A stretch of 40,997 nucleotides of DNA from a virus (IMGVR_UViG_3300030109_004304:1-40997); one strand, 5' to 3'; positions 8,575 to 27,392 are shown, counted from the first letter of the stretch. A program made the numbers and translations. The notes: a model not told the origin generated them from the letters alone.

Positions 8575-8581
8575 ACTGTCG

Positions 8582-8980: not shown

Positions 8981-9000
8981 GTTATCAAGATAACGCAAGT

Positions 9001-9008: not shown

Positions 9009-9009
9009 G

Positions 9010-13446: not shown

Positions 13447-13668
13447 ATAATCACCTTATCATTCACACTTATAATGGTATCTATTTTTCTATTCCTTTTG
13501 TCACTCTCAGAATTAATGTTTCGGGGTACTGCTCTAATGTTTCCTATTTATTTTATTTCTTCATAGACATTTTTAGATTAGTTACTATCATAAACACTAA
13601 TGAATCAAATAAAGAATTCACAAAAACGTGATACTGCACCCCATTAATTTATTTTGTATTGTTCTGAA
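13447..13668. other. AT-rich spacer between two leftward operons
   Basis: This 222-bp stretch is very AT-rich and holds no supported gene. Its left end has the promoter for 13446, preceded on the minus strand by a purine-rich run that could be a BRE. The rest may contain the end of the operon from 16421. No convincing hairpin was seen. Confidence 0.5.
13468..13475 (-). promoter_or_regulatory. TATA box of the MCM operon
   Basis: ATTATAAG on the minus strand, followed by TGTGAA, ends 21 nt before the ATG at 13446. Confidence 0.65.
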
Positions 13669-14872: not shown

Positions 14873-15111
14873 GGAAACCACCTGTCTAGAACGTTGAATG
14901 GGTCTAGAAGATTCGCCCTGTTTACATTGATGGCGTTCAGCGACATCAACTTTTCCAGATAGACGCAAGCGTCAAGTAACTCTTCCTGCAAATGCTGTAG
15001 CCATTCATCGTATGTTAGGTCAGTCCTCTCCATCGTGGTGTTGTATTTCTTCTCACCGACTTCGGCCCTCTGTCTTATTTTTACGATAACTCTTTCTTCT
15101 ATCTCACTCAT
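14869..15111 (-). CDS. MazG-like all-alpha NTP pyrophosphohydrolase
   Basis: The 80-residue protein has the phage MazG-like pattern: KIRQRAEVGEKKYNTTMER, then DEWLQHLQEELLDACVYLEK with E43, E44 and D47 as the metal-binding EExxD. Such enzymes hydrolyse (d)NTPs to monophosphates, cleaning nucleotide pools or blunting host stress signals. Start 15111 is chosen for its GGAGTG at 5 nt; ATGs at 15114 and 15141 are alternatives. Confidence 0.7.
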   Translation of the reverse strand: MSEIEERVIVKIRQRAEVGEKKYNTTMERTDLTYDEWLQHLQEELLDACVYLEKLMSLNAINVNRANLLDPFNVLDRWFP

Positions 15112-15698: not shown

Positions 15699-15859
15699 TC
15701 TATAAGACCCCCAAGCGATTCTATCACGCCTTGTAGAGCCTCGATGTGTTCTGCTTGCGCTTGTATGATTGCATCCTTTTCTTTTAGCATATTAGTTATG
15801 TTGTCTAAGGCATTCGTTGATAGGTAATGTACTCTCATTTTTTCTGTCATTTCATTCAT
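15695..15859 (-). CDS. 54-residue coiled-coil protein
   Basis: The protein begins MNEMTEKMRVHYLSTNALDN and continues as an amphipathic helix (MLKEKDAIIQAQAEHIEALQ). ATGA overlaps on both sides support translation. Function unknown. Confidence 0.65.
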   Translation of the reverse strand: MNEMTEKMRVHYLSTNALDNITNMLKEKDAIIQAQAEHIEALQGVIESLGGLIE

Positions 15860-16134
15860 AGTATGTTCCCCCACTTCTTCAGCGCGTCCGTGTCTGTGAC
15901 AGTGTATGATGCTACCTTGTAGGTAATGTCATTGTACGTCTTGACCTTGACTGCATAGGAATCTTTCTCTACGCCCTTCGCTCCGCGTAGCAGAACGCTG
16001 ACGTGTCGCGCGTCAATGATGGAATTCTTAGTGATGTTCTTGTCTAACAGGGGTATAATCTGTTCCGCAATAATACCGTCTGGGTTGGCGAGAAGAACTT
16101 TGGCTATCGCTCTGCGTGCTGCTACTCGCCTCAT
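15856..16134 (-). CDS. Winged-helix-like protein
   Basis: The 92-residue protein has a winged-helix pattern (ARRAIAKVLLANPDGIIAEQ, IIPLLDKN, then DARHVSVLLRGAKGVEK) followed by beta wings. It belongs to the same loose group as the proteins at 13033, 8582 and 16747. Possible transcription factor or replication adaptor. Confidence 0.65.
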   Translation of the reverse strand: MRRVAARRAIAKVLLANPDGIIAEQIIPLLDKNITKNSIIDARHVSVLLRGAKGVEKDSYAVKVKTYNDITYKVASYTVTDTDALKKWGNIL

Positions 16135-16421
16135 TCTTCCTCATCCTCCACTTTCTTCTTAGGGTTTACCCAAGATGACAGGTGCGGCGGGTAGTTGCCC
16201 GAATAACCGGGGTACTTGAAGTCCTCCTGCTCCTGTATCCTCTCCATCAGTTTGGCATACTCTTCGTGGTACACACTGAAAATGGTACCCGAAGTCATGT
16301 GCAAATCGTAATAGACTTGGCCTAGTTGGTCGTGCATCTTCGTCATGGCAATGATTGAATCAATGTCCAATTTCGACAGCCCATGAGCCGTTTTTAGTAG
16401 TATCCAATTCTTCTTTTTCAT
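16131..16421 (-). CDS. Protein of unknown function
   Basis: The 96-residue protein is alpha/beta with a basic start (MKKKNW) and a tail rich in Pro, Tyr and acidic residues. It heads the operon 16421 to 13669 behind an operator-TATA promoter and a 46-nt gap, with a G-rich ribosome site before the ATG. Confidence 0.65.
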   Translation of the reverse strand: MKKKNWILLKTAHGLSKLDIDSIIAMTKMHDQLGQVYYDLHMTSGTIFSVYHEEYAKLMERIQEQEDFKYPGYSGNYPPHLSSWVNPKKKVEDEEE

Positions 16422-16465
16422 GTTATCTTTTCCCCCCTGACGGGTAAACTAGCGTGTTGTTAGTA

Positions 16466-16501
16466 GTATTTAAGGATGTCGGTTGCGCGTTCGCAAGCGT
16501 C
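16466..16501 (-). promoter_or_regulatory. Operator copy 1 and TATA box for the operon from 16421
   Basis: GACGCTTGCGAACG at 16488-16501 lies 13 nt upstream of CTTAAATAC at 16466-16474 on the minus strand. The copy lies after the stop codon of the upstream gene, so it is a DNA signal and not coding. Confidence 0.75.
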
Positions 16502-16505
16502 ATAA

Positions 16506-16661
16506 TCACTCTTCCGCCTCCATGATTTGCGCGAACCAATCCTGTATGAAGTGAATGTCATCCATCACTTCGTTGTACCATTCGGGATTCCAATCTGGGC
16601 CTCGCACGATGTAATCTCTGATACCATGTAGTGACTTCTTGATTCGCTCTATGTCACTCAT
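16506..16661 (-). CDS. 51-residue acidic protein
   Basis: The protein begins MSDIERIKKSLHGIRDYIVR and is rich in Trp and acidic residues. It is coupled to the micropeptide before it as ATGA and ends just before operator copy 1. Function unknown. Confidence 0.6.
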   Translation of the reverse strand: MSDIERIKKSLHGIRDYIVRGPDWNPEWYNEVMDDIHFIQDWFAQIMEAEE

Positions 16662-16747
16662 GCCATCACCGCCGCACCTATCATTACTATTGCGCTAATA
16701 ATACACACGATAGTTATTTTTATCATATTCTTAGTAGGCTCGCGCAT
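16658..16747 (-). CDS. 29-residue membrane micropeptide
   Basis: MREPTKNMIK is followed by a hydrophobic span (ITIVCIISAIVMIGAAV). The ATG overlaps the preceding stop as TGATG after GGAGGG, and its stop overlaps the next ATG. This strong coupling supports translation. Function unknown. Confidence 0.65.
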   Translation of the reverse strand: MREPTKNMIKITIVCIISAIVMIGAAVMA

Positions 16748-17112
16748 CAGAATCCCTCCGACTTTTTCTTGTTAGTTTTAGCGTCATAGTATTCGGATGG
16801 GAATGCTTGTCCCTCACCGAGAAGATAGGTCTCCTTGTCCGTCAAAAACCAGTGGGCCATTAGCCTTCCGTCCACTTTGTCTTTGTAATTCGCAAAATGA
16901 GGATGGCACTTCAACACGCTAGTCAATGCTCTAACACCTTTCAGATAATGAAAAATCGGTCTGCCGTTTCTCATGGTCGCCTCGTACATCAACTCGTTCG
17001 TAGGTGCGCTTTCTTTGAGTATTAGATGTCTCGCTACCGCCGCCAAAACGCGATGGTGTTTTACCTTGATGTTAGTACCGGGTACCTTGACCCTCCTATC
17101 AGTCACTCCCAT
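16747..17112 (-). CDS. Winged-helix-like basic protein
   Basis: The 121-residue protein has a pattern VLAAVARHLILKESAPTNEL followed by a helix LKGVRALTSVLKCHPHF, as in the other winged-helix proteins of the window, and a basic C-terminus (KTNKKKSEGF). Likely DNA-binding. It overlaps the upstream gene by 10 nt. Confidence 0.6.
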   Translation of the reverse strand: MGVTDRRVKVPGTNIKVKHHRVLAAVARHLILKESAPTNELMYEATMRNGRPIFHYLKGVRALTSVLKCHPHFANYKDKVDGRLMAHWFLTDKETYLLGEGQAFPSEYYDAKTNKKKSEGF

Positions 17113-17312
17113 CTGGTAATCACCCCGTCTTGGACCAGTGCGTTATAATTCTCCATCCATGAGGCTAGTACGGTTGCCGCGCTTACGTTGATGTCGTCCT
17201 CTTCCATGTATCTTTCTAGGTAAGGTCTTGCACCATACATATTTACCGCGCCCGATTGTCTCAGGTTCTCTAGGTACTGGTAATACTCAGTCCACTCGGA
17301 GTTATAACTCAT
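17103..17312 (-). CDS. Small acidic protein
   Basis: The 69-residue Tyr-rich acidic protein begins MSYNSEWTEYYQYLENLRQS. Start 17312 is chosen because it follows GGGAGAGG and overlaps the upstream stop as ATGA; the frame is open to 17327. Function unknown. Confidence 0.65.
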   Translation of the reverse strand: MSYNSEWTEYYQYLENLRQSGAVNMYGARPYLERYMEEDDINVSAATVLASWMENYNALVQDGVITRWE

Positions 17313-17458
17313 GCTATCCTCTCCCACCTAGAGAATCCACCTACGAATCCTCTGAAAACATACATGTGGTTAGGGTAACCCCACTCGTTCAAGTGTTCGG
17401 TAGGGATTTCGTGCTTCGTTGGCAGTTTCATCCTCTGTGCTTGTGTTAAATCTGACAT
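17309..17458 (-). CDS. 49-residue HLNEWGYP protein
   Basis: The protein begins MSDLTQAQRMKLPTKHEIPT and has HLNEWGYP followed by YVFRGFVGGF. It shares HLNE(W/F)GYP and the following aromatic strand with the rightward gene at 28242, so the two are probable paralogs. Directly follows the TGA of its upstream neighbour. Function unknown. Confidence 0.65.
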   Translation of the reverse strand: MSDLTQAQRMKLPTKHEIPTEHLNEWGYPNHMYVFRGFVGGFSRWERIA

Positions 17459-17785
17459 TCACTCTTCCTCCTCGTTGCTTGCCTTCTGCTCGTTCTTTGC
17501 CTTTATCTGATGATACCGGCTGAGTCCCCCTTCTGTGTAGAAATCCTCTTTCCAACCCTTGTATGTGACTACATTCTCAGAATCCATAAGGTCGTCTTCT
17601 TCCTCTATCAATACCCAATGCTCACACATGTCGCGCTCAGTCATTGTAACCACATCGTACTGACCGTCGTTCCCGCGTAGCGTCCAAGTGTAAATACCAA
17701 AGTCTGATATTGCCACGTCCGTACATAGGACCTCTCGGTCATTATGCTTATTTCTGTACATTTTGTTAAGTCTTTCTCTTACCAT
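17459..17785 (-). CDS. Protein of unknown function
   Basis: The 108-residue protein has a basic N-terminus, then a beta-rich middle (GIYTWTLRGNDGQYDVVTMT) and a highly acidic tail (ASNEEEE). It is first in its operon, 21 nt after the TATA box, with GGTGAT as well. Confidence 0.65.
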   Translation of the reverse strand: MVRERLNKMYRNKHNDREVLCTDVAISDFGIYTWTLRGNDGQYDVVTMTERDMCEHWVLIEEEDDLMDSENVVTYKGWKEDFYTEGGLSRYHQIKAKNEQKASNEEEE

Positions 17786-17806
17786 ATTATCACCTAATAG
17801 TCGCTT

Positions 17807-17842
17807 CTATTTAAACCCTGCTATCGTTCGTTCGCAAGCGTC
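17807..17842 (-). promoter_or_regulatory. Operator copy 2 and TATA box for the operon from 17785
   Basis: GACGCTTGCGAACG at 17829-17842 lies 13 nt upstream of TTTAAATAG at 17807-17815. The operator's first GA belongs to the TGA stop of the micropeptide upstream. Confidence 0.75.
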
Positions 17843-17921
17843 AATATTGTCTTGCCCACATATCCTCCAACATTACCCATACGCCAAACAGAATTATTAT
17901 TGCGACAAAAGTATCAACCAT
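17841..17921 (-). CDS. 26-residue membrane micropeptide
   Basis: The peptide MVDTFVAIIILFGVWVMLED continues as MWARQY; nearly all of it is one membrane span. It overlaps the upstream gene by 8 nt, and its stop codon merges with operator copy 2. Translation is plausible but unproved. Confidence 0.55.
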   Translation of the reverse strand: MVDTFVAIIILFGVWVMLEDMWARQY

Positions 17922-18336
17922 TGTGCTGCCACCATTCGTCGTTCGGGTCGAAGATAGGATTACTTCTCAACTTTACAAGCGCCTCTTCAAATCCACCCAT
18001 ACCAAAATACTCATAGATTGCTTTAAGTAATCCGGCGGACTGTCTATACATTCGTGCGGCGGCGTAAGGTGACTCCGGCATATCAACCAATTCTCCTTCT
18101 GCCACCGATTCAATAAAAGGAGTGAAGCCGAAGGCACATCGAATAACATCATCGTCACTCATCAAATTCTCATAGAAGTTTTGCCAATACTTGATAGGGT
18201 GATTAGTCCTCTCCCTTCTTTCGGCTTGGCTCATATTCTGATGTGGCTTTCGGCACTTCTCGCAATAGCCATTCAATTCCCACATCTCTCTAGTTTTACG
18301 GGGAAGTAAACCCATTTCGTCACGCCAATCACTCAT
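17914..18336 (-). CDS. Protein of unknown function with CxxC
   Basis: The 140-residue protein has CEKC at 25-28 near a phage-like N-terminus (WRDEMGLLPRKTREMWELNG) and a helical C-terminal half. Possibly metal-binding. Abuts the zinc-ribbon gene upstream. Confidence 0.65.
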   Translation of the reverse strand: MSDWRDEMGLLPRKTREMWELNGYCEKCRKPHQNMSQAERRERTNHPIKYWQNFYENLMSDDDVIRCAFGFTPFIESVAEGELVDMPESPYAAARMYRQSAGLLKAIYEYFGMGGFEEALVKLRSNPIFDPNDEWWQHNG

Positions 18337-18537
18337 CTATTCTTCCTCCGTAGCGTATATGTCGTCGTGCCGCAGGTATTCCCATCGAGCAGGGAGTACG
18401 TGACGCACGTTGCATCTGTCGCAACACACACCGTAAGCCATGCTAACGAGGGGGGCAGGGTTGTTGCCCCATTGATTCTCACATTTTACTCCACAGAGTA
18501 CACAGGTTGGTTTTTCTTTTGTGCTAATATTACACAC
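18337..18537 (-). CDS. Zinc-ribbon protein, GTG start
   Basis: The 66-residue product has CVLC, GVKC and CCDRC, enough for a treble-clef or zinc-ribbon. The start is taken as GTG 18537, which follows GGGGGG and overlaps the previous gene's stop by 8 nt; the upstream extension would run deep into that gene. Function unknown. Confidence 0.6.
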   Translation of the reverse strand: MCNISTKEKPTCVLCGVKCENQWGNNPAPLVSMAYGVCCDRCNVRHVLPARWEYLRHDDIYATEEE

Positions 18538-19063
18538 CCCCCATCCACCAATCAGGTGCAGGTGTGCCCTTGTTCCACTGAGCAAACTCTTTGCTGTGGT
18601 AGTAGCGCCTGTAAGCCTGTACTGCGTCATCGCCTGTAGCATGAGAAGCAAAGGCTAACTCAAAGGTGAATTCGTCGGGCATGCACAGAGCGTAAGGAGT
18701 TTGCGGGCCGTCCTCTATCATCTCTGAAAAGAAGGGGTCACATAGTTGTCTGATACCTGTCTCACAGAAGTGAACCTTACCGAACCTCTTGGTGTACTCT
18801 TTGCACAGAGCAAGAGCGTGAAGCATAGTCCAATGGTAGTTATCTTTGGATTGACCTACCCAGCGGGTCGCGGGATGGTTGTGGTAACCTCCCTTAAGTG
18901 GCGTACCCTTCTTAGTGAGTGGCATAACGTCAGGCGTAGCACCGTGGCGTATGACGGCAGAGCCTAATTGTTGATACAATTCGACTACCATTTTGGGTAC
19001 GTGCTTGTCGCAGTACATTTGTGCTGCTACTTCTGGGTTTTCGTCTAGTACAAATATGTTCAT
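18530..19063 (-). CDS. Conserved tailed-virus protein (CDKHV..KM family)
   Basis: The protein has 177 residues. The N-terminus MNIFVLDENPEVAAQMYCDK followed by HVPKMVVE is a pattern I recognise from many bacteriophage proteins. The later NHPATRWVGQSKDNYHW, EYTKRFGK, AYRRYYHSK and PAPDWW blocks belong to the same family. Function is not established to my knowledge; conserved His, Cys and Asp suggest an enzyme. Directly behind an operator-TATA promoter with start 21 nt from the TATA. Confidence 0.8.
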   Translation of the reverse strand: MNIFVLDENPEVAAQMYCDKHVPKMVVELYQQLGSAVIRHGATPDVMPLTKKGTPLKGGYHNHPATRWVGQSKDNYHWTMLHALALCKEYTKRFGKVHFCETGIRQLCDPFFSEMIEDGPQTPYALCMPDEFTFELAFASHATGDDAVQAYRRYYHSKEFAQWNKGTPAPDWWMGGV

Positions 19064-19084
19064 ATTACCACCTGCTATTACCTA

Positions 19085-19120
19085 GTATATAATTACTCCT
19101 ATTCCTCGTTCACAAGCGTC
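19085..19120 (-). promoter_or_regulatory. Operator copy 3 and TATA box for the operon from 19063
   Basis: GACGCTTGTGAACG at 19107-19120 lies 14 nt upstream of TTATATAC at 19085-19092. The operator is inside the 3' end of the upstream reading frame. The TATA is part of an ACCTAGTATATA box also repeated at 27-29 kb. Confidence 0.75.
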
Positions 19121-19272
19121 GATTCTTCCTCCGCGTAGCATTGCGCGTATTGTCCCTTCCACTTGTTATTCACTGCGCTCATGCATCGCCTCATAGTATC
19201 GTCATTCGGGTCATCGAGATAAAGGGCGGTATCGCTTCCACAATTCGAGCAAGTTACTTTTGGTGTTATAAT
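19099..19272 (-). CDS. Small zinc-ribbon ORF with unclear start
   Basis: An open frame ends TLVNEE-stop at 19099 and encodes TPKVTCSNCGSDTALYLDDP followed by two more Cys (RRCMS and AQCYA). Four Cys form a credible zinc ribbon. No ATG, GTG or TTG precedes the first Cys pair in this frame; an ATT at 19272 just after GGGGTGG is the only candidate, and an internal ATG would cut the ribbon. A non-standard start or a small sequence error is possible. Confidence 0.4.
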   Translation of the reverse strand: MITPKVTCSNCGSDTALYLDDPNDDTMRRCMSAVNNKWKGQYAQCYAEEESTLVNEE

Positions 19273-19568
19273 TCCACCCCGTATTCTTTTGCTAACTCGC
19301 CGGTCATTATCAAGCGTATTGCTTCGCCCACATCTTGCAAGTCACGGCACATCACGACATCCATCTCCATCGGGATGTCGCCATCATAGAAGGGACAAAC
19401 CTCGTACTTGATGGTGTCGCACCACGTTCTATTGACTACGCTGTAACCCCATCCGGTTTCGGGAACGTACCTCTCCAATCCTAGATTTCCAAACTCCATC
19501 TCCCACAGTGCCTTTACGCTCTCCTGCCTGTCTTTGATTTTATCTTTACTGTTAAAGTTGCTGTTCAT
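19266..19568 (-). CDS. Protein of unknown function
   Basis: The 100-residue alpha/beta protein has a basic N-terminus and a middle rich in aromatic residues (GWGYSVVNRTWCDTIKYEVC). The start follows GGGGTGATTG. No family recognised. Confidence 0.65.
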   Translation of the reverse strand: MNSNFNSKDKIKDRQESVKALWEMEFGNLGLERYVPETGWGYSVVNRTWCDTIKYEVCPFYDGDIPMEMDVVMCRDLQDVGEAIRLIMTGELAKEYGVEL

Positions 19569-19572
19569 TCAA

Positions 19573-19836
19573 TCACCCCTCGTCCGGTTCGTATGTGCCA
19601 TAATTAGGGTCAAGTCTTCGCTCTTCTCGCTCATCCTCATCACGCCACTCTTGCCATACAGAAGCCACCGCTAGAGCCAATTCGTCAAGCGGTACGGGTA
19701 TTTCATGCTCGTCCCAAAATTCGTACCAGCCCTCACGCTCTAATTGGTCTATGGCTTCGTTCCACATGGTGCGGAATTCGGTCCCGGCCTTTATCGTTTC
19801 ATTCGCTATTTTTCTTAGATTATCATTCATTTTCAT
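19573..19836 (-). CDS. Acidic helical protein
   Basis: The 87-residue protein begins MKMNDNLRKIANETIKAGTE. Start 19836 follows GGAGAGGAAAG; the frame is open to 19872. The C-terminus is Glu/Asp/Arg-rich. First gene of a short operon. Function unknown. Confidence 0.65.
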   Translation of the reverse strand: MKMNDNLRKIANETIKAGTEFRTMWNEAIDQLEREGWYEFWDEHEIPVPLDELALAVASVWQEWRDEDEREERRLDPNYGTYEPDEG

Positions 19837-19879
19837 GCTTTCCTCTCCTTCTATGAAGTGCCACGGTGACAAAGTTGTG

Positions 19880-19909
19880 TTCGAAACTCACTCTTGCGGA
19901 TTCGAAACT
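19880..19909. repeat. TTCGAAACT direct repeat, 21-bp period
   Basis: TTCGAAACT occurs at 19880-19888 and 19901-19909, exactly 21 bp apart (two helical turns), upstream of the gene at 19836. This operon lacks the GACGCTTGC operator and may use this pair instead. Confidence 0.5.
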
Positions 19910-19990
19910 ATGTTAGTATTTTTGCCATAAAATAAACTAGATTGATTGTAAAGAATCTCGTAGTCGCAAGTCGCGAAGAAGACATTCACC

Positions 19991-20182
19991 TCACCACTCT
20001 CCTCTGTTTGTGAGGAGTAGTGAAGTCGGGAAATCCTCGGTCGTTACGAATTCCAACACCGCAGTAGCCAAGCCGCTGTCTATGTTTTCCTTACCGAAGC
20101 CTCTGTTCTCTACGTTGGCGATGATTTCCTTCAACGTCTTGAGGTTGAGGACACAGGAGAATTCTTTTAGTTTCATATTCAT
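19991..20182 (-). CDS. Small protein of unknown function
   Basis: The 63-residue protein follows the DUF932 gene with an ATGA overlap; a second ATG 6 nt downstream has better spacing from GGTGG. Contains LKTLKEIIANVENRGFGKEN. Function unknown. Confidence 0.6.
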   Translation of the reverse strand: MNMKLKEFSCVLNLKTLKEIIANVENRGFGKENIDSGLATAVLEFVTTEDFPTSLLLTNRGEW

Positions 20183-21198
20183 GCCACCAGTATCTTCTCG
20201 TATGCCTGTGCCTTCATCCTTGCGCCGGGTCCCATGACCGCAGACTCTACCCTCTTCTCGTTAGGGACTAGGAGTTTGCCTTCCTTGTCCATAGTCCAGC
20301 GGTGGTCTAGGTACTCGGTGACTGCGCTGTAGGCTTGGAATTTTGTACCTCCCATGTTGCCGACTGTGTTAGTGGTTGAGTTTTCTAACTCCATGAGTAC
20401 GTCTATAGTGTTGTTAGCGCGAGTACCAAGCCCGAAGGGGTTGTTTGGGTCGTAGTCCTTGCCGCCCTTTAGCATGGTCTCGTTCTGTGATAGTCCGAGA
20501 ACGTCTATGTAGTACTCTACACGGTCGCCCATGTCCATGCTTTGATTGATTAGCATTGCTTGCTCTTCTACGAATGCGTGTGACAGGTCGTTGATGATAC
20601 CTAGGTTCATCTTCAAGTCCTCTAGTCGCAAGTCCATGAGCGCCGAGTGGCGGATGGATAGTTTGCGGGGGTTGATGCCGTTTCGCACTAGGAATGAGTG
20701 GAGCATGGCACCCTGATTCGCGCAGAATAGTCTGACCGGAGAGGGGAACAACTTGAGACCCATCGAACCGTCGTGGCTAGATAGTAGGTACCAATAGATG
20801 TCGTACTCTTCCTGCTCGCTACCGTTAGCGAATGATAGACCCTCCGGGTTGCGGAAGGACATGAATATCTGTCTGCCGTTGTCTACTGCTCCTATGCGGT
20901 CAATCTGTGCGCCGGTGTCTTTGCACAACTCTTCAAACAGGTTAATCACTTGAATATTCTGGAAAGTCTCGTACTTCTTAGACACTACACCTAGTGGTTG
21001 GTTTGTGTCTGTCCTAGTCACGACTCTGTGTCCGCCGGGAAGTTTGTTACCCGTGTGGTCGTACAGGTGCCTCTTCTCGACTGTGAAGTCTAGCCCTGCG
21101 TTTTTGAGAATCTCCCTTCCGGTGGTTCCCTCTGCTTCCTGCCCTATGCGGTTGAAAGCGCTGATTATTGTTTGGTTCAGTCCAACTGTTTCTGCCAT
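20179..21198 (-). CDS. DUF932 (phage/plasmid-like TIGR03299) protein
   Basis: The 339-residue protein matches the DUF932 pattern: HRVVTRTDTNQPLGVVSKKY, FEELCKDTGAQIDRIGAVDN, SSHDGSMGLKLFPSPVRLFC and IRHSALMDLRLEDL. The family is common on phages and plasmids; it is often linked to DNA metabolism but has no proven activity. Start 21198 follows AGGTGATAAT; an ATG at 21216 is too close to the TATA box. First gene behind operator copy 4. Confidence 0.85.
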   Translation of the reverse strand: MAETVGLNQTIISAFNRIGQEAEGTTGREILKNAGLDFTVEKRHLYDHTGNKLPGGHRVVTRTDTNQPLGVVSKKYETFQNIQVINLFEELCKDTGAQIDRIGAVDNGRQIFMSFRNPEGLSFANGSEQEEYDIYWYLLSSHDGSMGLKLFPSPVRLFCANQGAMLHSFLVRNGINPRKLSIRHSALMDLRLEDLKMNLGIINDLSHAFVEEQAMLINQSMDMGDRVEYYIDVLGLSQNETMLKGGKDYDPNNPFGLGTRANNTIDVLMELENSTTNTVGNMGGTKFQAYSAVTEYLDHRWTMDKEGKLLVPNEKRVESAVMGPGARMKAQAYEKILVA

Positions 21199-21221
21199 AT
21201 TATCACCTTGTTTCATCTAGT

Positions 21222-21255
21222 ACTTATATCTTTTCATCACTCGTTCGCAAGCGTC
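21222..21255 (-). promoter_or_regulatory. Operator copy 4 and TATA box for the DUF932 operon
   Basis: GACGCTTGCGAACG at 21242-21255 lies 12 nt upstream of ATATAAGT at 21222-21229. The operator encodes TLANE at the end of the upstream gene. Confidence 0.75.
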
Positions 21256-21797
21256 GCTTTCGCTCTTGCCATGTTCGCCTTCTCCTTGTGGTTGATGAAA
21301 TCGTATTGGTCTTCAAAGTCTCCCTCTGCTTCTTTGAATGCCTCCTCAAACCGCTCCATAGACTCTTTTCTAGGGTCTATTTCTAGCGGCGCCTCTAAGA
21401 GGCCGCCGTGGTGGAGAGCATCGGTTGCGTCATCTATGAACGGTTGCCTCTCAAAGTACATCCACATGTCAACGAGAGCCTCGGTAATCATTATCTCGCC
21501 TGTCTCGTAATCGTAAGTCGCATACTGCACCTCGTCCCAATGCTGGACGTGGGTGAGATTAAGTTTGCTGTTGCCAATCTTAGTCTTCTTCTCGTATCTT
21601 GCGGCACAGCAGTGGCATATCCCGGCACCGTTGGCGCTGAGTACTGCCACCTTCTTCGACCTGTCGTGAGTTATGAAAACCGCCGGCTTGATGAGTTTGG
21701 TAACTCCATTCTCTGGGTCTGCCTCTCTGACAACGGAGGCATAGTGTACCCACCCATCGTCACACTGGTCGCATCGGTGCGCTCTTGTTTTCGACAT
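21237..21797 (-). CDS. Zinc-binding protein of unknown function
   Basis: The protein has 186 residues from ATG 21797 (MSKTRAHRCDQCDDGWVHYA), which follows GGAGAG. Two knuckles, CDQC at 9-12 and CHCC about 50 residues later, make a zinc ribbon; the C-terminal half is acidic and helical. The last codons (ATLANE) are the operator sequence of the next promoter. The upstream frame extension to 21899 overlaps the neighbouring gene and is rejected. Confidence 0.7.
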   Translation of the reverse strand: MSKTRAHRCDQCDDGWVHYASVVREADPENGVTKLIKPAVFITHDRSKKVAVLSANGAGICHCCAARYEKKTKIGNSKLNLTHVQHWDEVQYATYDYETGEIMITEALVDMWMYFERQPFIDDATDALHHGGLLEAPLEIDPRKESMERFEEAFKEAEGDFEDQYDFINHKEKANMARAKATLANE

Positions 21798-21799
21798 GT

Positions 21800-21994
21800 T
21801 CAAAGACTCTCCTCTATGTTCTTCCTTCTCTTCTTCTCTATCAACGCGCATAGTAAATGCTCTATCTCGTAAGAGGCCCCGGTGTTTATGGTAACCCACA
21901 TTTCTTCGGGTATGTGTGGCCTCGCAAACTCTAGCGCTTCGTGCGCTGTTCGTATCAACTTTATCGCCTTGTCTAAATCTTGTACCGTTGTCAT
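21800..21994 (-). CDS. Small helical protein
   Basis: The 64-residue helical protein has a basic C-terminus (LIEKKRRKN). First gene of its operon, after GGAGAT. Function unknown. Confidence 0.6.
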   Translation of the reverse strand: MTTVQDLDKAIKLIRTAHEALEFARPHIPEEMWVTINTGASYEIEHLLCALIEKKRRKNIEESL

Positions 21995-22031
21995 CTTCTC
22001 TATCTCCTATAATATTGCTATATTTGCTGAC

Positions 22032-22067
22032 CTATATTAACTGTTCTATCACACCTTCGCAAGCGTC
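22032..22067 (-). promoter_or_regulatory. Operator copy 5 and TATA box for the operon from 21994
   Basis: GACGCTTGCGAAGG at 22054-22067 lies 13 nt upstream of TTAATATAG at 22032-22040. It overlaps the last codons of the upstream gene (MTLAKV). Confidence 0.75.
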
Positions 22068-22453
22068 ATCTTGACTTCCCCATTCTCGTCAATTTGTACA
22101 CCTGTCCAAACCATGTCATTCTTGATACCCTCTAGGCTCATCTCATGCATCTTCTTTTCAAAGCAGTGGGGGCACTCAATCTTGATGCGCTCTTCTGCCA
22201 CCGAGTCATAGATGTAGTGCCTGAATTGCCCGTCGTTGCAGGTGCATTTCTTGAAAAATCCGTAGAAGTCGCGGGTTACGTCGTACTTCTCAAAGTACCC
22301 TCCGGTATCAATGTACTCCGACCATACCCATATGTCTTTATCCATGATGTACTTGAAGGTGATGGACTCCATTAGCCAGTCTTGCCACCAAGATTGGCTT
22401 GCCCTCTCTCCGTATTCCTCTTGGAAATCCTCGTAGGTTAGGAAATTCTTCAC
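22049..22453 (-). CDS. Zinc-binding protein of unknown function
   Basis: The 134-residue protein is rich in Trp, Tyr and Phe in its first half, with a CTC at about 87 and CPHC at about 112 making a probable zinc site. ATG overlaps the previous stop as ATGA. Function unknown. Confidence 0.65.
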   Translation of the reverse strand: MKNFLTYEDFQEEYGERASQSWWQDWLMESITFKYIMDKDIWVWSEYIDTGGYFEKYDVTRDFYGFFKKCTCNDGQFRHYIYDSVAEERIKIECPHCFEKKMHEMSLEGIKNDMVWTGVQIDENGEVKMTLAKV

Positions 22454-22830
22454 TCAATCACCTCTAGGTTCATGTATCGGAAACCGTGAATACCATCGGT
22501 GAAGGGGTCGGAATTCCAATCCCCGCCAAACCTCTCATGGTCGGGTTCTACCCACTCGTTACCCCACTTGTTAAGCGTTCTTTCTCCGCCCTCAAGGAAT
22601 TCTGCACGGGGGCAAATGTGCGCCTTCTCGTCATATCTTGGGTTGGGTGGGGAATAGTGGATAACTCCCTTCTCTTTAAGGGTCGTAATTAGAGCGCGTA
22701 CCTGTCTCATGGGGAGGCTCTCATATCCTACGCCGACCCACATTGTGAAGCCGTAGCCGTCGCTTGAATGGTCGCTGTGCGCAATGTCCGTTAGGAGTTG
22801 CTTTTCTAGTTTGGTTATTTTTACTACCAT
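22450..22830 (-). CDS. Winged-helix-like protein
   Basis: The 126-residue protein has an N-terminal helix pattern (ITKLEKQLLTDIAHSD), then LPMRQVRALITTLKEKGVIH as a likely recognition helix and wing. The C-terminal FGGDWNSDPFTDG resembles FHGGNWKGNPRVW of the protein at 29772, suggesting related C-terminal domains. Its start lies 20 nt after a TATA box under operator copy 6. Candidate regulator of the operator family. Confidence 0.65.
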   Translation of the reverse strand: MVVKITKLEKQLLTDIAHSDHSSDGYGFTMWVGVGYESLPMRQVRALITTLKEKGVIHYSPPNPRYDEKAHICPRAEFLEGGERTLNKWGNEWVEPDHERFGGDWNSDPFTDGIHGFRYMNLEVIE

Positions 22831-22850
22831 GATTCACCCTATACTCACTA

Positions 22851-22886
22851 CTATATTAAATGTACTATCACGCGCTCGCAAGCGTC
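22851..22886 (-). promoter_or_regulatory. Operator copy 6 and TATA box for the operon from 22830
   Basis: GACGCTTGCGAGCG at 22873-22886 lies 12 nt upstream of TTTAATATAG at 22851-22860. This copy has a perfect CGCT/AGCG dyad. Confidence 0.75.
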
Positions 22887-22948
22887 AAAACCGTAAGACT
22901 TATATATGGATTGTTCGCGTTATTTTTGTCCTAATCATAAGGGCTGTC

Positions 22949-22985
22949 AGTATATAGTCATTTCGATTTTACTTTTGCAAGCGTC
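22949..22985 (-). promoter_or_regulatory. Operator copy 7 and TATA box with no obvious gene
   Basis: GACGCTTGCAAAAG at 22972-22985 lies 14 nt upstream of CTATATACT at 22949-22957 on the minus strand. Only a 12-codon frame follows before copy 6, so it may drive a small RNA or give a second start site for the operon from 22830. Confidence 0.65.
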
Positions 22986-23044
22986 AAAAAAACCTTATGC
23001 AAATTTCAGCAGCAAAATTTTACTTTTGCCACAAAAAAATGTCA

Positions 23045-23076
23045 ATAAAAAATAACATGGCGTTAGGCGTCCATGT
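23045..23076 (-). terminator. Hairpin plus T tract (minus strand)
   Basis: ACATGG(A)CG pairs with CGCCATGT over a 5-nt loop at 23055-23076 and is followed on the minus strand by ATTTTTTATTG. The 5' arm carries a three-codon ORF (ATG GAC GCC TAA) preceded by a perfect GGAGGTGAT, so the element could be an attenuator rather than a plain terminator. Confidence 0.45.
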
Positions 23077-23111
23077 CATCACCTCCATTTATTTTTAAGT
23101 TAGAAAAAGTT

Positions 23112-23176
23112 GGGGTGAGTCAAGCCCCGGAAGTGATGCAAGAACGGAAACCGGCGGTGACTCAAGCCGCCGGTTT
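23112..23176 (-). ncRNA. Candidate structured RNA: two hairpins with the same loop
   Basis: GGGG/CCCC at 23112-23128 and a perfect 10-bp stem (AAACCGGCGG at 23148-23157 with its complement at 23167-23176) enclose loops that differ by one base (plus strand TGAGTCAAG and TGACTCAAG). The region is much more GC-rich than its surroundings and not coding. The strand is uncertain; minus fits the flanking promoters. Confidence 0.45.
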
Positions 23177-23222
23177 TGAGTTGGGTGGGGTGCGGGTAAG
23201 GCAAAGAAAACAACGAACTAAG

Positions 23223-23282
23223 AAAAAAAACAATACCTGTCCCGCTAAACGTCCTTAACATGCTATGCCTGATTAAGGAACG
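23223..23282 (-). terminator. Hairpin and T8 tract after the operon from 23927
   Basis: A 9-bp stem with one bulge (TCCTTAA at 23252-23258 with TTAAGGA at 23273-23279, extended by CG) lies just past the stop at 23299. An eight-T run on the minus strand follows at 23223-23230. Likely transcription end. Confidence 0.5.
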
Positions 23283-23298
23283 ACCCCCATTTCCCACT

Positions 23299-23448
23299 CT
23301 AGTTATTCACCTCCTCGTAAACCTCATCAAATTGTGTATGATTGTTCAACTCAAAAAGGAGCCAATCACAGTACTCTCTTAGGGTGTTGAATTCTGTGTA
23401 CTCCCACTCTTCAAAGTGTGGCGACCATCGGCGGATTATCTTCTTCAT
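23299..23448 (-). CDS. 49-residue protein
   Basis: The protein begins MKKIIRRWSPHFEEWEYTEF and is rich in aromatic and acidic residues. The start overlaps the previous stop as ATGA and follows GGGGAGG. Function unknown. Confidence 0.6.
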   Translation of the reverse strand: MKKIIRRWSPHFEEWEYTEFNTLREYCDWLLFELNNHTQFDEVYEEVNN

Positions 23449-23612
23449 TCGACAACCTCCCCGTTATTTTTTAGGTACCTGAAATTGAATTTGGGCTTCT
23501 TCTTGACCTTCTTTGTTGATAGCACGAATTCCCAGAAATCATCGAACATTTCATGCGAGGAGTCCATGAGGTCACCGTGAACGGTGATTGTTATTTGCGT
23601 TTCTTTTACCAT
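23445..23612 (-). CDS. 55-residue protein
   Basis: The protein begins MVKETQITITVHGDLMDSSH, followed by a helix and a basic stretch (KKVKKKPK). It is separated by 6 nt from its upstream neighbour, whose tail provides GGTGATT. Function unknown. Confidence 0.6.
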   Translation of the reverse strand: MVKETQITITVHGDLMDSSHEMFDDFWEFVLSTKKVKKKPKFNFRYLKNNGEVVE

Positions 23613-23618
23613 AATTAA

Positions 23619-23927
23619 TCACCAATCCATCACGATTATTCTGTGGTTTGACCATCCTACTTCGTCAACCTGTATGACTGTCGTGTAAAATTCTAGGTTC
23701 TCGTCTTCGTCAAGCCCGTATGCCTCGCGGCACTCTGCTTCGTTTGCGTACTCTGTCCACTCACAGCAAATCCCGATTACATCGAGTTCCAATTCTTTGC
23801 CGGTGTCTCTCTCCCAATCGGTCAGGTGTCTAAAGAGTGCCCTTCGCCCGTTGAAGGTGAAATTGTCCTCTCTACCCCTGCGTTCAAAGGCTTCTATAAA
23901 TTCGTTCTCCGTTACTGTCTGCTTCAT
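23619..23927 (-). CDS. Conserved phage-type protein of unknown function
   Basis: The 102-residue protein follows a pattern familiar from many phage and bacterial proteins: FIEAFERRGREDNFTFNGRR, ALFRHLTDWERDTGKELELD, VIGICCEWTEY. Activity is unknown. Start 23927 follows GGAGAGG and lies 20 nt after the TATA box; the longer frame to 23978 would run through the promoter and is rejected. Confidence 0.75.
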   Translation of the reverse strand: MKQTVTENEFIEAFERRGREDNFTFNGRRALFRHLTDWERDTGKELELDVIGICCEWTEYANEAECREAYGLDEDENLEFYTTVIQVDEVGWSNHRIIVMDW

Positions 23928-23947
23928 ATCTTGTCCTCTCCTTGCTA

Positions 23948-23983
23948 CTATATTAAATGTTTCATCGCTCGTTTGCAAGCGTC
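23948..23983 (-). promoter_or_regulatory. Operator copy 8 and TATA box for the operon from 23927
   Basis: GACGCTTGCAAACG at 23970-23983 lies 12 nt upstream of TTTAATATAG at 23948-23957, in non-coding DNA between two operons. Confidence 0.75.
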
Positions 23984-24000
23984 GTTTTCTCCTTCCGCGT

Positions 24001-24255
24001 TCACTTTACGCGGTATTCTCCCGACTTGACTTTCTCGCGCACGTCTTTGATTGAATACTCGTTTAGGAATTGGAGTAAATATCGGTTAGTGGTGGCCGAG
24101 TACATATCCCAATAGGGGTCAAAAAGCGTAACCTCTCCGTCAAAAGTGACGTGGGCAATGCTTGACCCGTAGGACTTGAACAGTCTGCCGTTGTCCTGAA
24201 AGAAAACCCATTGGTCTCTTGCCGCGTTCCCGCCGGGGGTTATTAGCGCTCTCAT
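24001..24255 (-). CDS. Protein of unknown function
   Basis: The 84-residue protein begins MRALITPGGNAARDQWVFFQ and is beta-rich (SIAHVTFDGEVTLFDP) then helical. Start 24255 overlaps the previous stop as ATGA; the longer frame is rejected because it overlaps the previous gene. Function unknown. Confidence 0.65.
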   Translation of the reverse strand: MRALITPGGNAARDQWVFFQDNGRLFKSYGSSIAHVTFDGEVTLFDPYWDMYSATTNRYLLQFLNEYSIKDVREKVKSGEYRVK

Positions 24256-24524
24256 TCTGAGACCCCCGCATTGACTGCCTCCACCCATCGGAGAGTTTCG
24301 CGGTTCGTCAGCATGTAGGAGATGGTTAAAGTCCACTCCGCGAGCGTGTCACTGAAACCGGACAACTGTTGAGTCTCTATCGCTTCGGCCATCTCTCTGC
24401 GGCTCATCCGGCCGCGGTGGTGGTCTTCGGCCTCGGTCTCGCAGAGGAAGTTAAGCGCGGCAACCTTAGACGCGAACACAACTTCTCCCCACGCCCCGGA
24501 GGATAGGACGAACACCTTTTTCAT
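24252..24524 (-). CDS. Protein of unknown function
   Basis: The 90-residue protein begins MKKVFVLSSGAWGEVVFASK and has a helical rest with RRGRMSRREMAEAIE. Start 24524 overlaps the previous stop as ATGA after GGAGGCGAG. The first strand-turn pattern is typical of small phage proteins, function unknown. Confidence 0.65.
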   Translation of the reverse strand: MKKVFVLSSGAWGEVVFASKVAALNFLCETEAEDHHRGRMSRREMAEAIETQQLSGFSDTLAEWTLTISYMLTNRETLRWVEAVNAGVSE

Positions 24525-24805
24525 TCGCTCGCCTCCTTTGCCTTGAGGTCTCTGAGTTGTCTTCTGAAACTGCCCATCGTGCCGGGGCCGTTGGTGAGCC
24601 AACCGGTGATTTGGTAGCCTCTCCACACTTCGTATGCGTCGGGGTTGTCGTCCTGCTCAAATAGCGCCGCGTTCTTCTCTGCGGCTGTCCTTAGCAGTAA
24701 CTTGATTGCCGTCCTTCTGTTGTCCGCAATCAGGTTAATGAGGTTTATCGCCTCGGCTATTTGGTTACCTTGTATGTTCAAAATATCTTCTAGGTTCGCT
24801 TTCAT
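24521..24805 (-). CDS. Helical protein of unknown function
   Basis: The 94-residue protein is mostly helical (IAEAINLINLIADNRRTAIK) with a basic C-terminus. First gene behind operator copy 9, about 43 nt after the TATA box, with AAGGAGAAC as ribosome site. Confidence 0.65.
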   Translation of the reverse strand: MKANLEDILNIQGNQIAEAINLINLIADNRRTAIKLLLRTAAEKNAALFEQDDNPDAYEVWRGYQITGWLTNGPGTMGSFRRQLRDLKAKEASE

Positions 24806-24825
24806 GTTTTCGTTCTCCTTTGGTT

Positions 24826-24984
24826 CTAAACTGTCCTGTTTGTCCTAGTTATTAAGGGTTGTGATTCCGCGTTTGCAAGCGTCGCGTTCATCTTTGCGAC
24901 CTCTTCATTTCGGCGGTCAAGAATTCTCCTCCAATCGGCGCGCGCCTCTTGCATTTCTTTTATCACAATAGCAACTTCACCCAT
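24826..24984 (-). CDS. 52-residue coiled-coil protein containing the next promoter
   Basis: The protein begins MGEVAIVIKEMQEARADWRR and continues as a basic helix. Operator copy 9 and its TATA box lie within the 3' half of the frame (encoding MNATLANAESQ). The end of the frame is therefore under double selection, or the true end differs. Confidence 0.5.
   Translation of the reverse strand: MGEVAIVIKEMQEARADWRRILDRRNEEVAKMNATLANAESQPLITRTNRTV
24849..24883 (-). promoter_or_regulatory. Operator copy 9 and TATA box for the operon from 24805
   Basis: GACGCTTGCAAACG at 24870-24883 lies 13 nt upstream of CTTAATAA at 24849-24856. Confidence 0.75.
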
Positions 24985-25983
24985 TCAAGCGCACCCCCCG
25001 CATATTAGCCGGGCGTCCTGCTTGTCTTGGACTAGGTCGGCCCGGTGGATTCGGACGGCCTCGCGGGCTGGCATCTCTTTGGAGCAACCGCCGCACTTGC
25101 CGCGAATGCTTCTTAGAATCGCCTTGCCCATGATGCCCGGAGGTACTGCGAACCCGGCCCATGAAATTTCAGGCTTCTTTATGGCCTCCTTGTGAATCTT
25201 GCGAATTTTGATATTCTGGGCATCCTTGCGGAGTGTGGGCTTTGCCTTCTTGCAGGTGAGCGCGTGAGGGCTTCTGTACATGGTGCCGCAGCACTTGCGG
25301 CGCTTGGTGCGTCCGTTCTTGTCTCCGGTGCGGGCCTTGCTGTCACCCTTGCCGGCCTTGCCTCCCTTCTTGCCTAGTGCCGCCATCGTCGGGCACTTCT
25401 CGCCGGGCAGGTGAATGGCGCCGTTGCACGCCTTCATTCTGCATTTCTTGCCGCCGCTCTCTTTGATAAGCCTCTTTTCCATCTGGGCCGCTCGCCTCTT
25501 GAGTCGGTGTTGAAGTTTCTTGCGTATCCTGTCGCGGTCTGAGATGCCGTTTTTGAATGGGCTGAGTGACTTGAAATCGAAGCACCACGCGGACGGCTCG
25601 CCCCAGCCCTTATCTTTGGCCTCTTCTGCGGGGTCGTAATATGGTTGGTCAAGGATTATTTTTAACTCGTCTAGGGTGATTGATTGCCAGCGCCCGAACT
25701 CGTCATATCCGCCAATGGCACGCACTCGGCCCCAGACTTGATGATTATTGTTCGCGCAGGTGTAACAAAATTCTTTCTCTTTGCAACCGTAATGCGGATG
25801 CTCACATGAGGCCGGGTCGCTGTTCTCAAAGACTCGCTCTCTTGCCTCTATTATTTCCGCTTCCGGCATGTCTCCGCACATACAACCGAGGCTCTCGGCG
25901 TGGGTCAATTTGGACCGGGCCTCTCTGAATTCGGCCCACACCTTAGCGTGTTCTGTGGTTATCGGCTGTCTGCCTATCATCAA
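24985..25983 (-). CDS. Cys- and Lys-rich multi-zinc-finger protein
   Basis: The 332-residue protein has at least five Cys clusters: CMCGDM, CEHPHYGCKEKEFCYTC, CRMKAC, KCCGTM, and a final ribbon CGGC/CGGC. A long Lys/Arg/Gly-rich centre (KKGGKAGKGDSKARTGDKNG) points to nucleic-acid binding. I do not recognise a family; a viral chromatin-like or RNA-binding protein is possible. It heads the first leftward operon after the strand switch. The higher GC of this gene, with many CGG/GCC codons, differs from the replisome genes. Confidence 0.65.
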   Translation of the reverse strand: MMIGRQPITTEHAKVWAEFREARSKLTHAESLGCMCGDMPEAEIIEARERVFENSDPASCEHPHYGCKEKEFCYTCANNNHQVWGRVRAIGGYDEFGRWQSITLDELKIILDQPYYDPAEEAKDKGWGEPSAWCFDFKSLSPFKNGISDRDRIRKKLQHRLKRRAAQMEKRLIKESGGKKCRMKACNGAIHLPGEKCPTMAALGKKGGKAGKGDSKARTGDKNGRTKRRKCCGTMYRSPHALTCKKAKPTLRKDAQNIKIRKIHKEAIKKPEISWAGFAVPPGIMGKAILRSIRGKCGGCSKEMPAREAVRIHRADLVQDKQDARLICGGCA

Positions 25984-26142
25984 ATTGAGCAGGGCCGGGT
26001 TTGCTTATGAACCTGCCGGTTAGAGGCAAAATTCACAACCATTATATACTTGGTTGCGCTCTCGTTTGGGATTTGTGCGGGGCGGGCCAAACCGAAACGG
26101 TTATAAGGGTGCATGGGATTTTTTTGACCCCAAATGTTATAT

Positions 26143-26163
26143 ACTCGGTGTAAAATTTACATC
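26143..26163. promoter_or_regulatory. Palindromic operator, copy a
   Basis: ACTCGGTGTAAAATTTACAT includes a perfect TGTAAA-A-TTTACA palindrome beside a TATATAC box. It is one of six related GGTGYA-A-rich elements in 26.1-27.9 kb. Confidence 0.55.
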
Positions 26164-26324
26164 GCCGCAGTACAACGTTTTTCACAAAACGCCGATTTCA
26201 CCCTTTGAGGCCGGCCTAGAAGCGAATTTAGGGCGACTTGCTCGCAGTACAACGGTTTTTGTCTCGGAAAACTTTATCTCTAGAAATCTCATGCACGCCT
26301 TATAATGTTTACTGTCACTCTCGC

Positions 26325-26346
26325 ACTAGGTGCAAAAAGTAAACTT
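26325..26346. promoter_or_regulatory. Palindromic operator, copy b
   Basis: ACTAGGTGCAAAAAGTAAAC shows the same left arm (ACTAGGTG) and A tract with a weaker right arm. Confidence 0.45.
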
Positions 26347-26390
26347 GCCGGCCAAGGGCGGTCGGTCTATAAAGGTTATGTTAGTATATA

Positions 26391-26415
26391 TAGTGGTGTA
26401 AAAAATGCACTTAGT
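26391..26415. promoter_or_regulatory. Palindromic operator, copy c
   Basis: GGTGTA-AAAAA-TGCACTTAGT lies 10 nt upstream of the TATA box for the gene at 26455, where a bound regulator could act directly. Confidence 0.6.
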
Positions 26416-26425
26416 GAAAGATAGG

Positions 26426-26433
26426 TTTAAGTG
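26426..26433 (+). promoter_or_regulatory. TATA box for the gene at 26455
   Basis: TTTAAGTG ends 21 nt before the ATG. The spacer contains a CCCCCC run followed by TCAAGGG, nearly shared with the promoter at 27485. Confidence 0.6.
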
Positions 26434-26454
26434 CATAGGCCCCCCTCAAGGGAT

Positions 26455-26853
26455 ATGAACACAGACGCGCAACACCGCCGACTTACTAGGATAGCCCTAG
26501 AGGCCGCGAGGATGGACGGTAGCCCCACCGGGTCAAATTTCCGTGATTACCTCGGCAACTTCGACCACATCGAATTCAAGAAGAGCGAGGCCGGCGATTA
26601 TCGAGCCGTGATTCTAGGGGCTGAAATATCACTAGGTAATGTGATTATTGAGGACGCCGTGAGAGTCCACAAGCGCCCCCGATGGACAATTTACGTCCGC
26701 CCGGAAACCTGCAAGAACCGAATAAACCATTTCGACCCCATCCGAACGGAGGCCGGCGGCATGCCGCCCATCAGCAAGACGCTAAGAGAGGCGAAGGAGT
26801 ATCTTTTCGACTACCTCAGAAATTCGGACGGCTCAGAAATTTGGTATTGGTGA
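26455..26853 (+). CDS. Protein of unknown function
   Basis: The 132-residue protein begins MNTDAQHRRLTRIALEAARM, with beta strands in the middle (RAVILGAEISLGNVIIEDAV) and a helical end. Start 26455 matches the 21-nt TATA spacing; an upstream in-frame GTG at 26431 lies in the TATA box. Its leader resembles that of the gene at 27514. First rightward gene after the strand switch. Function unknown. Confidence 0.65.
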   Translation: MNTDAQHRRLTRIALEAARMDGSPTGSNFRDYLGNFDHIEFKKSEAGDYRAVILGAEISLGNVIIEDAVRVHKRPRWTIYVRPETCKNRINHFDPIRTEAGGMPPISKTLREAKEYLFDYLRNSDGSEIWYW

Positions 26854-26919
26854 GACTTTCAGAGGCCAAAGTATATAAGGGGGTTAGTTTCGGGTAGGAT
26901 TTCACGGGGGCGGCGACTT

Positions 26920-26936
26920 GGTGTTTTTTCTGCACC
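26920..26936. promoter_or_regulatory. Palindromic operator, copy d
   Basis: GGTGTTTTTTCTGCACC is the element in opposite orientation, with GGTG/CACC arms and a T tract, just after the gene ending at 26853. Confidence 0.5.
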
Positions 26937-26952
26937 TATGGGGATGTTGGAT

Positions 26953-26977
26953 ACTAGGTGTAAAAAATACACTTAGT
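26953..26977. promoter_or_regulatory. Palindromic operator, copy e (best dyad)
   Basis: ACTAGGTGTA, five A, then TACACTTAGT: 10-bp arms matching at 9 positions. A TATAAATAA stretch follows directly. Confidence 0.65.
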
Positions 26978-27077
26978 ATATAAATAATTAATACCTTATA
27001 GTCTTTTCGCAAAGATTATATACCCCCCAAAATACTTGGCGCCTATGTCCGGCCCTGTCTATCTATTGACAACCTAG

Positions 27078-27102
27078 TATATAATCTTTCCTCGCAAGCG
27101 TC
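27078..27102 (-). promoter_or_regulatory. Operator copy 10 with close TATA box
   Basis: GACGCTTGCGAGGA at 27089-27102 (minus strand) is followed after only 2 nt by ATTATATAC. It is the only copy in the 26-29 kb region and the only one with altered spacing. It points leftward and has no obvious gene. Confidence 0.6.
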
Positions 27103-27223
27103 TGATTATCCTTAAGCCCGTCCGCCCCGCATGCCCGATGCGAAACCTAGTATATATACTTTGCTCGCACATGTACCCGAAAAGTATATAAGCCCCCTAA
27201 CCTCGAAAACATAGTATATAACC

Positions 27224-27387
27224 TTATCGAAAGACTTATAACCTAAAAAAAGGGGTATATAAACTTATCGAAAACCTTATATATGCTTAAAAAACCTTAT
27301 AAACCTTGCGAAAACCTTATATACCCTAAAAAAACCATATATAAACTTATCGAAAAGACTATATACTCTCTCTCTCTTATATAACGC
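27224..27387. repeat. Four tandem 41-bp iterons
   Basis: Copies of CTTATCGAAAACCTTATATA begin at 27224, 27265, 27306 and 27347, a constant 41-bp period. The rest of each unit is A-rich, ending CCATATATAAA or similar. Within each unit a half-period of about 20 bp repeats a TATA element. The fourth copy grades into a CT tract. Confidence 0.75.
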
Positions 27388-27392
27388 TTTTG

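Follow-up and report, generated by a model that had tools for sequence, protein, structure and literature searches.

An upstream promoter element at fixed distance from TATA boxes in marine tailed viruses, very probably a shared control site of a viral gene set

What does a short word do that recurs in front of about ten gene groups of a marine virus? In the record IMGVR_UViG_3300030109_004304 (the window hereafter; the entire virus record, 40,997 bp), the 9-base word GACGCTTGC forms the core of a 14-bp element that lies upstream of TATA boxes. Very probably, it is a common control site through which a set of viral genes would be switched together. At a probability of roughly 0.6, we read it as an upstream promoter element of the whole lineage; the protein bound to it would probably be an activator that contacts the TBP/TFB/RNA polymerase complex alongside.

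Copies of the element and their geometry

In the window, GACGCTTGC was matched exactly 10 times, always on the minus strand, with 0.22 expected, and none of 100 dinucleotide shuffles of the window gave 10 matches. Short as the word is, chance is hard to reconcile with these numbers, and neither chance nor recent duplication would leave the core invariant while the spacer and the genes diverge across viruses whose PolB proteins are just 50 to 60% identical; we consider both negligible. The preliminary description had listed ten copies with an invariant core. Nine of these indeed read GACGCTTGC, the copy at 19107-19120 is the one-base variant GACGCTTGT, and the list had overlooked the tenth exact match at 14965-14973, which has no TATA box and falls within a coding stretch (peptide EELLDACVYLEKL) that relatives conserve. 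A reading of the core as a coding repeat fits only 14965 and a GACGCTTGT in PolB at 3551; the others keep the promoter geometry. The copies are as follows.

16488-16501, minus strand: element GACGCTTGCGAACG; TATA box CTTAAATAC; start codon of 16131-16421 at +80 (leadered)
17829-17842, minus strand: element GACGCTTGCGAACG; TATA box TTTAAATA; ATG of 17459-17785 at +57
19107-19120, minus strand: variant element GACGCTTGTGAACG; TATA box TTATATA; ATG of 18530-19063 at +57
21242-21255, minus strand: element GACGCTTGCGAACG; TATA box GATATAAG; ATG at +57 of the DUF932 gene 20179-21216; overlaps the 3' end of open reading frame (ORF) 21237-21899
22054-22067, minus strand: element GACGCTTGCGAAGG; TATA box TTAATATA; a leader precedes 21800-21994 / 21237-21899; overlap with the 3' end of ORF 22049-22453
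22873-22886, minus strand: element GACGCTTGCGAGCG; TATA box TTAATATA; ATG of 22450-22830 at +56
22972-22985, minus strand: second, upstream element GACGCTTGCAAAAG for 22450-22830, with its own TATA box CTATATAC
23970-23983, minus strand: element GACGCTTGCAAACG; TATA box TTTAATATA; ATG at +56 of the gene ending at 23619
24870-24883, minus strand: element GACGCTTGCAAACG; TATA box CTTAATAA; start codon of 24521-24805 at +78 (leadered); within the 3' part of ORF 24826-24984
27089-27102, minus strand: element GACGCTTGCGAGGA; short spacing, TATA box at about +18/19; no ORF directly downstream; kept in the relatives G001 and G002
14965-14973, minus strand: exact core match in coding sequence, outside the regulon

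The linkage to TATA boxes claimed earlier was borne out, the spacing being exact in an ungapped alignment, and the direction relative to the TATA box was constant for all copies, as had been described. Non-coding copies in four related viruses (G001, G002, G006 and G007) were likewise all TATA linked and in one orientation. Two details had to be revised: between the 14-bp element at 27089 and its TATA box we found about 4 to 5 bp instead of 2 bp, and the CGCT...AGCG dyad that had been reported as best at 22873 is present in that copy only (22873-22886). The sole dyad common to most copies is CGC-TT-GCG, inside an asymmetric 14-bp site.

An ungapped matrix was built from 30 distinct promoter sites, which were thinned to 22 independent sites of the window's clade. 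Counted from the first base of the element, columns +1 to +7 of the 30-site matrix were invariant, 0 and +8 to +10 nearly invariant (about 2 bits per column over the core), and +11 to +13 partly conserved (0.8 to 1.0 bit). Most spacer columns were near background, conservation returned at the TATA columns +30 to +34, and columns beyond about +41 were near background or weakly A/G rich. Among the 22 independent sites, 20 had an A at +34, the end of the TATA box. A second sub-element, overlooked before, is an all-purine tetrad at -11 to -8 in 21 of the 22; it was not evident outside the window's clade. The full form in this clade is thus the purine tetrad (-11 to -8), GACGCTTGC[G/A]AAC[A/G], 13 bp and the TATA box. 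At the junctions compared between the window and G002, the element was 86 to 100% identical and the spacer was down to 56 to 68% at most sites.

An ATG stood at +55 to +57 in 12 of the 22 independent sites (binomial P ~1e-9); in most of the rest, the start codon was at +73 to +82 or an untranslated leader followed. Since the TATA box ends about 22 bp before the ATG, we infer for the +56 class the geometry of leaderless archaeal transcripts. The element is then predicted to sit at about -56 to -43 from the transcription start, adjoining the core promoter made up of the B recognition element (BRE) and the TATA box.

Related viruses and changing flanks

Family models recognized PolB, an AAA clamp-loader-like protein, a terminase and a PD-(D/E)XK nuclease among the window proteins, and a portal match was slightly under the Pfam cutoff. 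From gene order and pattern, and without a database match, we take 10885-12195 to be an MCM-like ATPase, 4414-5391 a RecA-like protein and 3624-4466 a PCNA-like protein. Like Magrovirales, this is a tailed double-stranded-DNA virus with its own replisome and with head and replication modules transcribed in opposite directions, as judged from PolB, the clamp-loader-like ATPase, terminase, portal and gene directions. As to the 90- to 110-kb genome with primase and ligase of the Magrovirales, the records compared were fragments of at most 72 kb, and no close named relative was found in the phage collection. The closest named PolBs, at 23% identity, belong to haloarchaeal tailed viruses; because of these and the promoter geometry, the host of this marine tailed virus is most likely archaeal. 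Neither PolB relatives nor a provirus was found in the species genomes searched.

Relatives were retrieved from IMG/VR using DUF932, the clamp loader, PolB and a DNA pattern. G001 was nearly identical to the window across the accessory and head half, G002 shared 91% identity in PolB and 67% in DUF932, and the PolBs of G006 and G007 were about 75% identical to that of the window. G009, G005, G022 and G042 followed with 54 to 56%, and further relatives were lower. In the PolB tree, every element-bearing virus fell within a single 12-row group (support, 93/90); four of its members, G015, G017, G004 and G011, are fragments apparently without the accessory region. Because the tree unites all element-bearing viruses, the element likely arose once. 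As a separate observation, the window and G001 share about 99.7% identity rightwards from about 16.5 to 16.7 kb and about 72 to 84% leftwards; this change at about 16460-16750 reflects either a recombinant or a chimeric assembly, and it lies within a few hundred bases or less of the element at 16488.

More distant viruses retained GCTTGCG and the spacing with other flanks. The flanking motif thus varies among viruses on a retained core promoter, from GACGCTTGCGAAC to GACGCTTGCGAT in G009 and TGCTTGCGTGGTCG in the sister clade. Five sites in G009 read [GA]ACGCTTG[CT]GAT, with the TATA box at +26 to +28 and the ATG at +55 or +56. G005, G042 and G022 have no GACGCTTGC promoters; TGCTTGCGTGGTCG or close forms stood at the equivalent position, for example before DUF932 in all three. 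The sister-clade form had been missed by a k-mer test of TATA linkage (k = 8) and was revealed by a listing anchored on start codons. Over seven genomes taken together, 20 of 23 cases had GCTTGCG at 52 to 54 bp from a leaderless ATG; with permuted heptamers, the number was at most 2, except for CGTGGTC, itself part of the sister-clade element. A matrix scan gave few sites beyond these lineages, and the top score in several hundred kilobases of Markov-sampled sequence was 14.4, compared with about 25 to 38 for the training sites. Outside G009, the only matches of a viral scan for ACGCTTGCGAT...TATAAG were in contigs not known to be related and had no promoter geometry. Both checks that the preliminary description had named as able to refute it were run, and neither did so: the core is not scattered without TATA linkage, and related viruses conserve it. 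Across lineages core, orientation and spacing are kept.

Because the flanking bases changed together at many sites in each lineage, the binding protein is probably encoded by the virus, a point that we hold more weakly than the binding itself. The site could instead belong to a host transcription factor borrowed by the virus, as the viral proteins proposed to read it are candidates. However, the exact extended pattern had no match in 84,980 species genomes, a collection that possibly does not include the true host, and flanks that change in step within each viral lineage are easier to explain with a viral reader. We consider a host factor unlikely.

Genes behind the element and candidate readers

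DUF932 (TIGR03299) was found behind the element in every lineage examined, despite changing upstream neighbors, and 22450-22830, 17459-17785, 16131-16421 and others also follow it. Family scans (no anti-defense library was searched) recognized DUF932/TIGR03299, one PHROG DNA-binding protein and unknowns. The idea that the leftward operons form one regulon is well supported by the core, orientation and spacing kept across lineages, but its restriction to accessory genes is not: G009 has homologues of the MCM-like ATPase (10885-12195) and of 8309-8545 behind the element, and G006 and G007 a homologue of 1018-1329, so the regulon is wider. Replication genes are thus also behind the element in some relatives. 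Replisome promoters carry a different motif, and we found no head gene behind the element.

The different motif is a second promoter class, TTATAAG[TC][GA]TGAA, on replisome-side genes, in which the start codon follows the start of the TATA box by 28 bp. Its sites in the window, at about 13474, 8573 and 1357, lie upstream of 13033-13446, 8309-8545 and 1018-1329, respectively, and its sister-clade form is TTATA[TG]GCGGATAG. Since 8309-8545 and 1018-1329 go with this motif in the window but with the element in G009 or in G006/G007, genes appear to switch promoter class between lineages. Other repeats were noted as well. A third motif, GCTACAAAT(TTGTAGC), occurs in large sets in G005, G042 and G022, for example in L027 (G005) at 1-4200 and in L124 (G042) at 3800-11800; its form GTTACAAA has 88 copies in G009, among them those in L131 at 6200-13700. 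Some third-motif copies lie shortly upstream of the TATA boxes of another gene block. In G009 (L130-L132), the minus strand carries 23 copies of TAAAAGTAA and the plus strand one; several of the copies fall within coding sequence.

Do the copies serve to exchange gene cassettes, with the promoter link being secondary? Upstream of the element at 19120 in the window and at 9913 in G002, the sequences were 88% identical, whereas the downstream genes differ and DUF932 follows in G002; for 21255 in the window and the same G002 site, the downstream side was 68% identical and the upstream side 47%. Operons with their own promoter have thus exchanged places by a join inside the promoter, and the upstream neighbors of DUF932 also differ among genomes. 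A recombination signal, however, gives no reason for the exact TATA and start codon spacing, a single clear swapped junction turned up in the comparison of the window with G002, and shared promoter sequence suffices for such swaps. We regard a recombination signal as very unlikely and read the exchange as a by-product of the shared promoter sequence, not as the purpose of the element.

The copy at 27089-27102 drives no ORF for about 1.1 kb, and its transcript would run antisense to the plus-strand ORF 26431-26853. Since the surrounding sequence is conserved in G002 (91 to 93% identity), a conserved untranslated RNA from this promoter is possible. Next to it, the non-coding stretch 27140-27390 contains roughly 10 or more TATA boxes about 20 bp apart, linked by GGTTTTCG[AC][TA]AAG-like units. 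This array, which ends just before the element, is conserved in G002 (about 3960-4260) and G006 (about 11130-11480) and raises the question of an origin or a transcription hub.

Which protein could read the element? Three candidates stand out in the window.

24985-25983, minus strand: cysteine-rich basic protein heading the leftward block, putative candidate regulator; element-free TATA promoter; co-occurs with the element
15856-16134, minus strand: winged-helix protein, candidate regulator; AlphaFold2 predicted local distance difference test (pLDDT) score 88; family widespread in the group
22450-22830, minus strand: protein confined to the window's clade, candidate regulator; directly behind two elements; winged helix unconfirmed (pLDDT 53)

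The gene 24985-25983 is the first of the leftward block, and its occurrence across genomes coincides with that of the element. In genomes that have the region, it and DUF932 match the distribution of the element perfectly, but so does the clade itself, and a search for a single protein by matching distribution was confounded by descent. The AlphaFold2 model of 15856-16134 is a winged helix whose best PDB matches include a replication terminator protein, TFIIE and PadR, all with weak E values; its profile matched the families of 13033 and 8582 in relatives. Together, 8582-9013, 13033-13446, 15856-16134 and 16747-17112 look like one expanded winged-helix family, whose members are all candidate readers. 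Of the proteins proposed earlier as winged helices, 8582 and 13033 gain support through these family links and 16747 by resemblance only, whereas 22450 is unproven, its structure model being poor. As a sole reader, 22450-22830 was rejected, since it is found neither in G009 nor in the sister clade, both of which carry the element. Tentatively, one can imagine a two-step transcription program of this marine archaeal virus lineage, legible from its promoter classes, in which 24985-25983, from its element-free promoter, or a winged-helix paralogue would be a specific activator reading GCTTGCG plus the lineage-specific flanks, site and protein having codiverged into separate specificities.

Activation or repression, and known systems

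In the mechanism that we prefer, a sequence-specific protein would bind the element beside the BRE/TATA core promoter and touch the TBP/TFB/RNA polymerase complex on it, so that early or middle nonstructural operons would be switched on in one step. Such a contact is suggested because the site, at about -56 to -43, is asymmetric, has a single orientation and is locked to the base pair to the BRE/TATA. The sequence does not decide between an activator and a repressor, but it favors the former because the spacing is rigid just upstream of the core promoter. Other genes have promoters without the element.

Alternatively, the element could be the operator of an Aca-like viral repressor: strong early promoters would fire on infection, and a viral protein would then bind the element and shut the set down, as in the published model for the early genes of SIRV2 and Aca8 (PMC11065993). 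In favor of this, 22450-22830 comes directly after two elements, as its homologues do after one in G006 and G007. In G022, moreover, an exact 13-base copy of the element of its lineage is placed after the TATA box and before the start codon of the 24985-25983 homologue, where a site for autorepression is typically found. The usual position of the element is, however, clear of BRE, TATA and start site, and a simple steric repressor has no need of single-base-pair spacing. We therefore treat repression as a serious rival of low probability. Several observations nevertheless count against activation by a dedicated protein. The core promoters have a fairly good, strong-looking BRE/TATA, so that an activator is perhaps not needed and repression is possible. 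The link of any protein to the element is co-occurrence only and confounded by descent. Finally, the rule has exceptions: the spacing is shorter at 27102 and at G006 12230, and the first base is altered at G006 20143 and G007 6143.

For uncultured marine archaeal viruses, experimental data on gene regulation are almost nil. Sequence, position and targets of such a site can be read from metagenomes, which makes a transcription program predictable; the element names coregulated genes of unknown function, and its lineages offer a natural series of diverged site specificities, useful for studying virus-encoded archaeal regulators.

How does the element compare with known systems? T4-like phages have promoter cassettes tied to modular shuffling; these resemble the present copies as repeated regulatory units at the borders of gene modules, but consist of a bacterial sigma-70 promoter and a stem-loop. 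Virus-specific promoter motifs common to many small genes are known in archaeal viruses (PMC11065993; PMC8707807), so the earlier statement that no description was known does not hold for the kind; for the element itself, its exact geometry and a core common to lineages whose flanks are switched, a limited literature search found no description. In Sulfolobales viruses, many small genes of one virus have a common regulatory sequence around BRE/TATA, the flanks vary between viruses on a constant core promoter, and a small viral DNA-binding protein, as studied with Aca8, is thought to act there (Bhoobalan-Chitty et al. 2024, PMC11065993). The present viruses likewise share a motif with BRE/TATA among several small genes per genome, with varying flanks and a retained core promoter. 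In contrast, the word conserved here precedes the core promoter, with a distance fixed to the base pair, and is common to divergent viruses with altered flanks, which are marine and tailed; immediate-early expression and genes that counter host defense mark the Sulfolobales type. The tailed archaeal halovirus HF2 also has repeated promoter sequences, intergenic and conserved in position within the genus; its class I repeats are 58 bp long with a conserved start site (gamma) motif, and mutating the upstream alpha block left activity unaffected (Russ et al. 2021, PMC8707807). Here, the conservation is in the upstream element and not around the start site, and a long repeat with a gamma block was not encountered. 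A tested precedent for an element bound beside the BRE is the UV-box of Sulfolobus acidocaldarius, ANTTTC, which is non-palindromic, lies at -39 to -44 upstream of the BRE and is essential for promoter activity (Le et al. 2017, PMC5817253). Both are non-palindromic upstream motifs that adjoin the BRE at a fixed distance from the TATA box and are common to a regulon; the UV-box is cellular, 6 bp long and closer to the start, whereas the viral GCTTGCG, which does not match ANTTTC, would lie at about -53 to -47.

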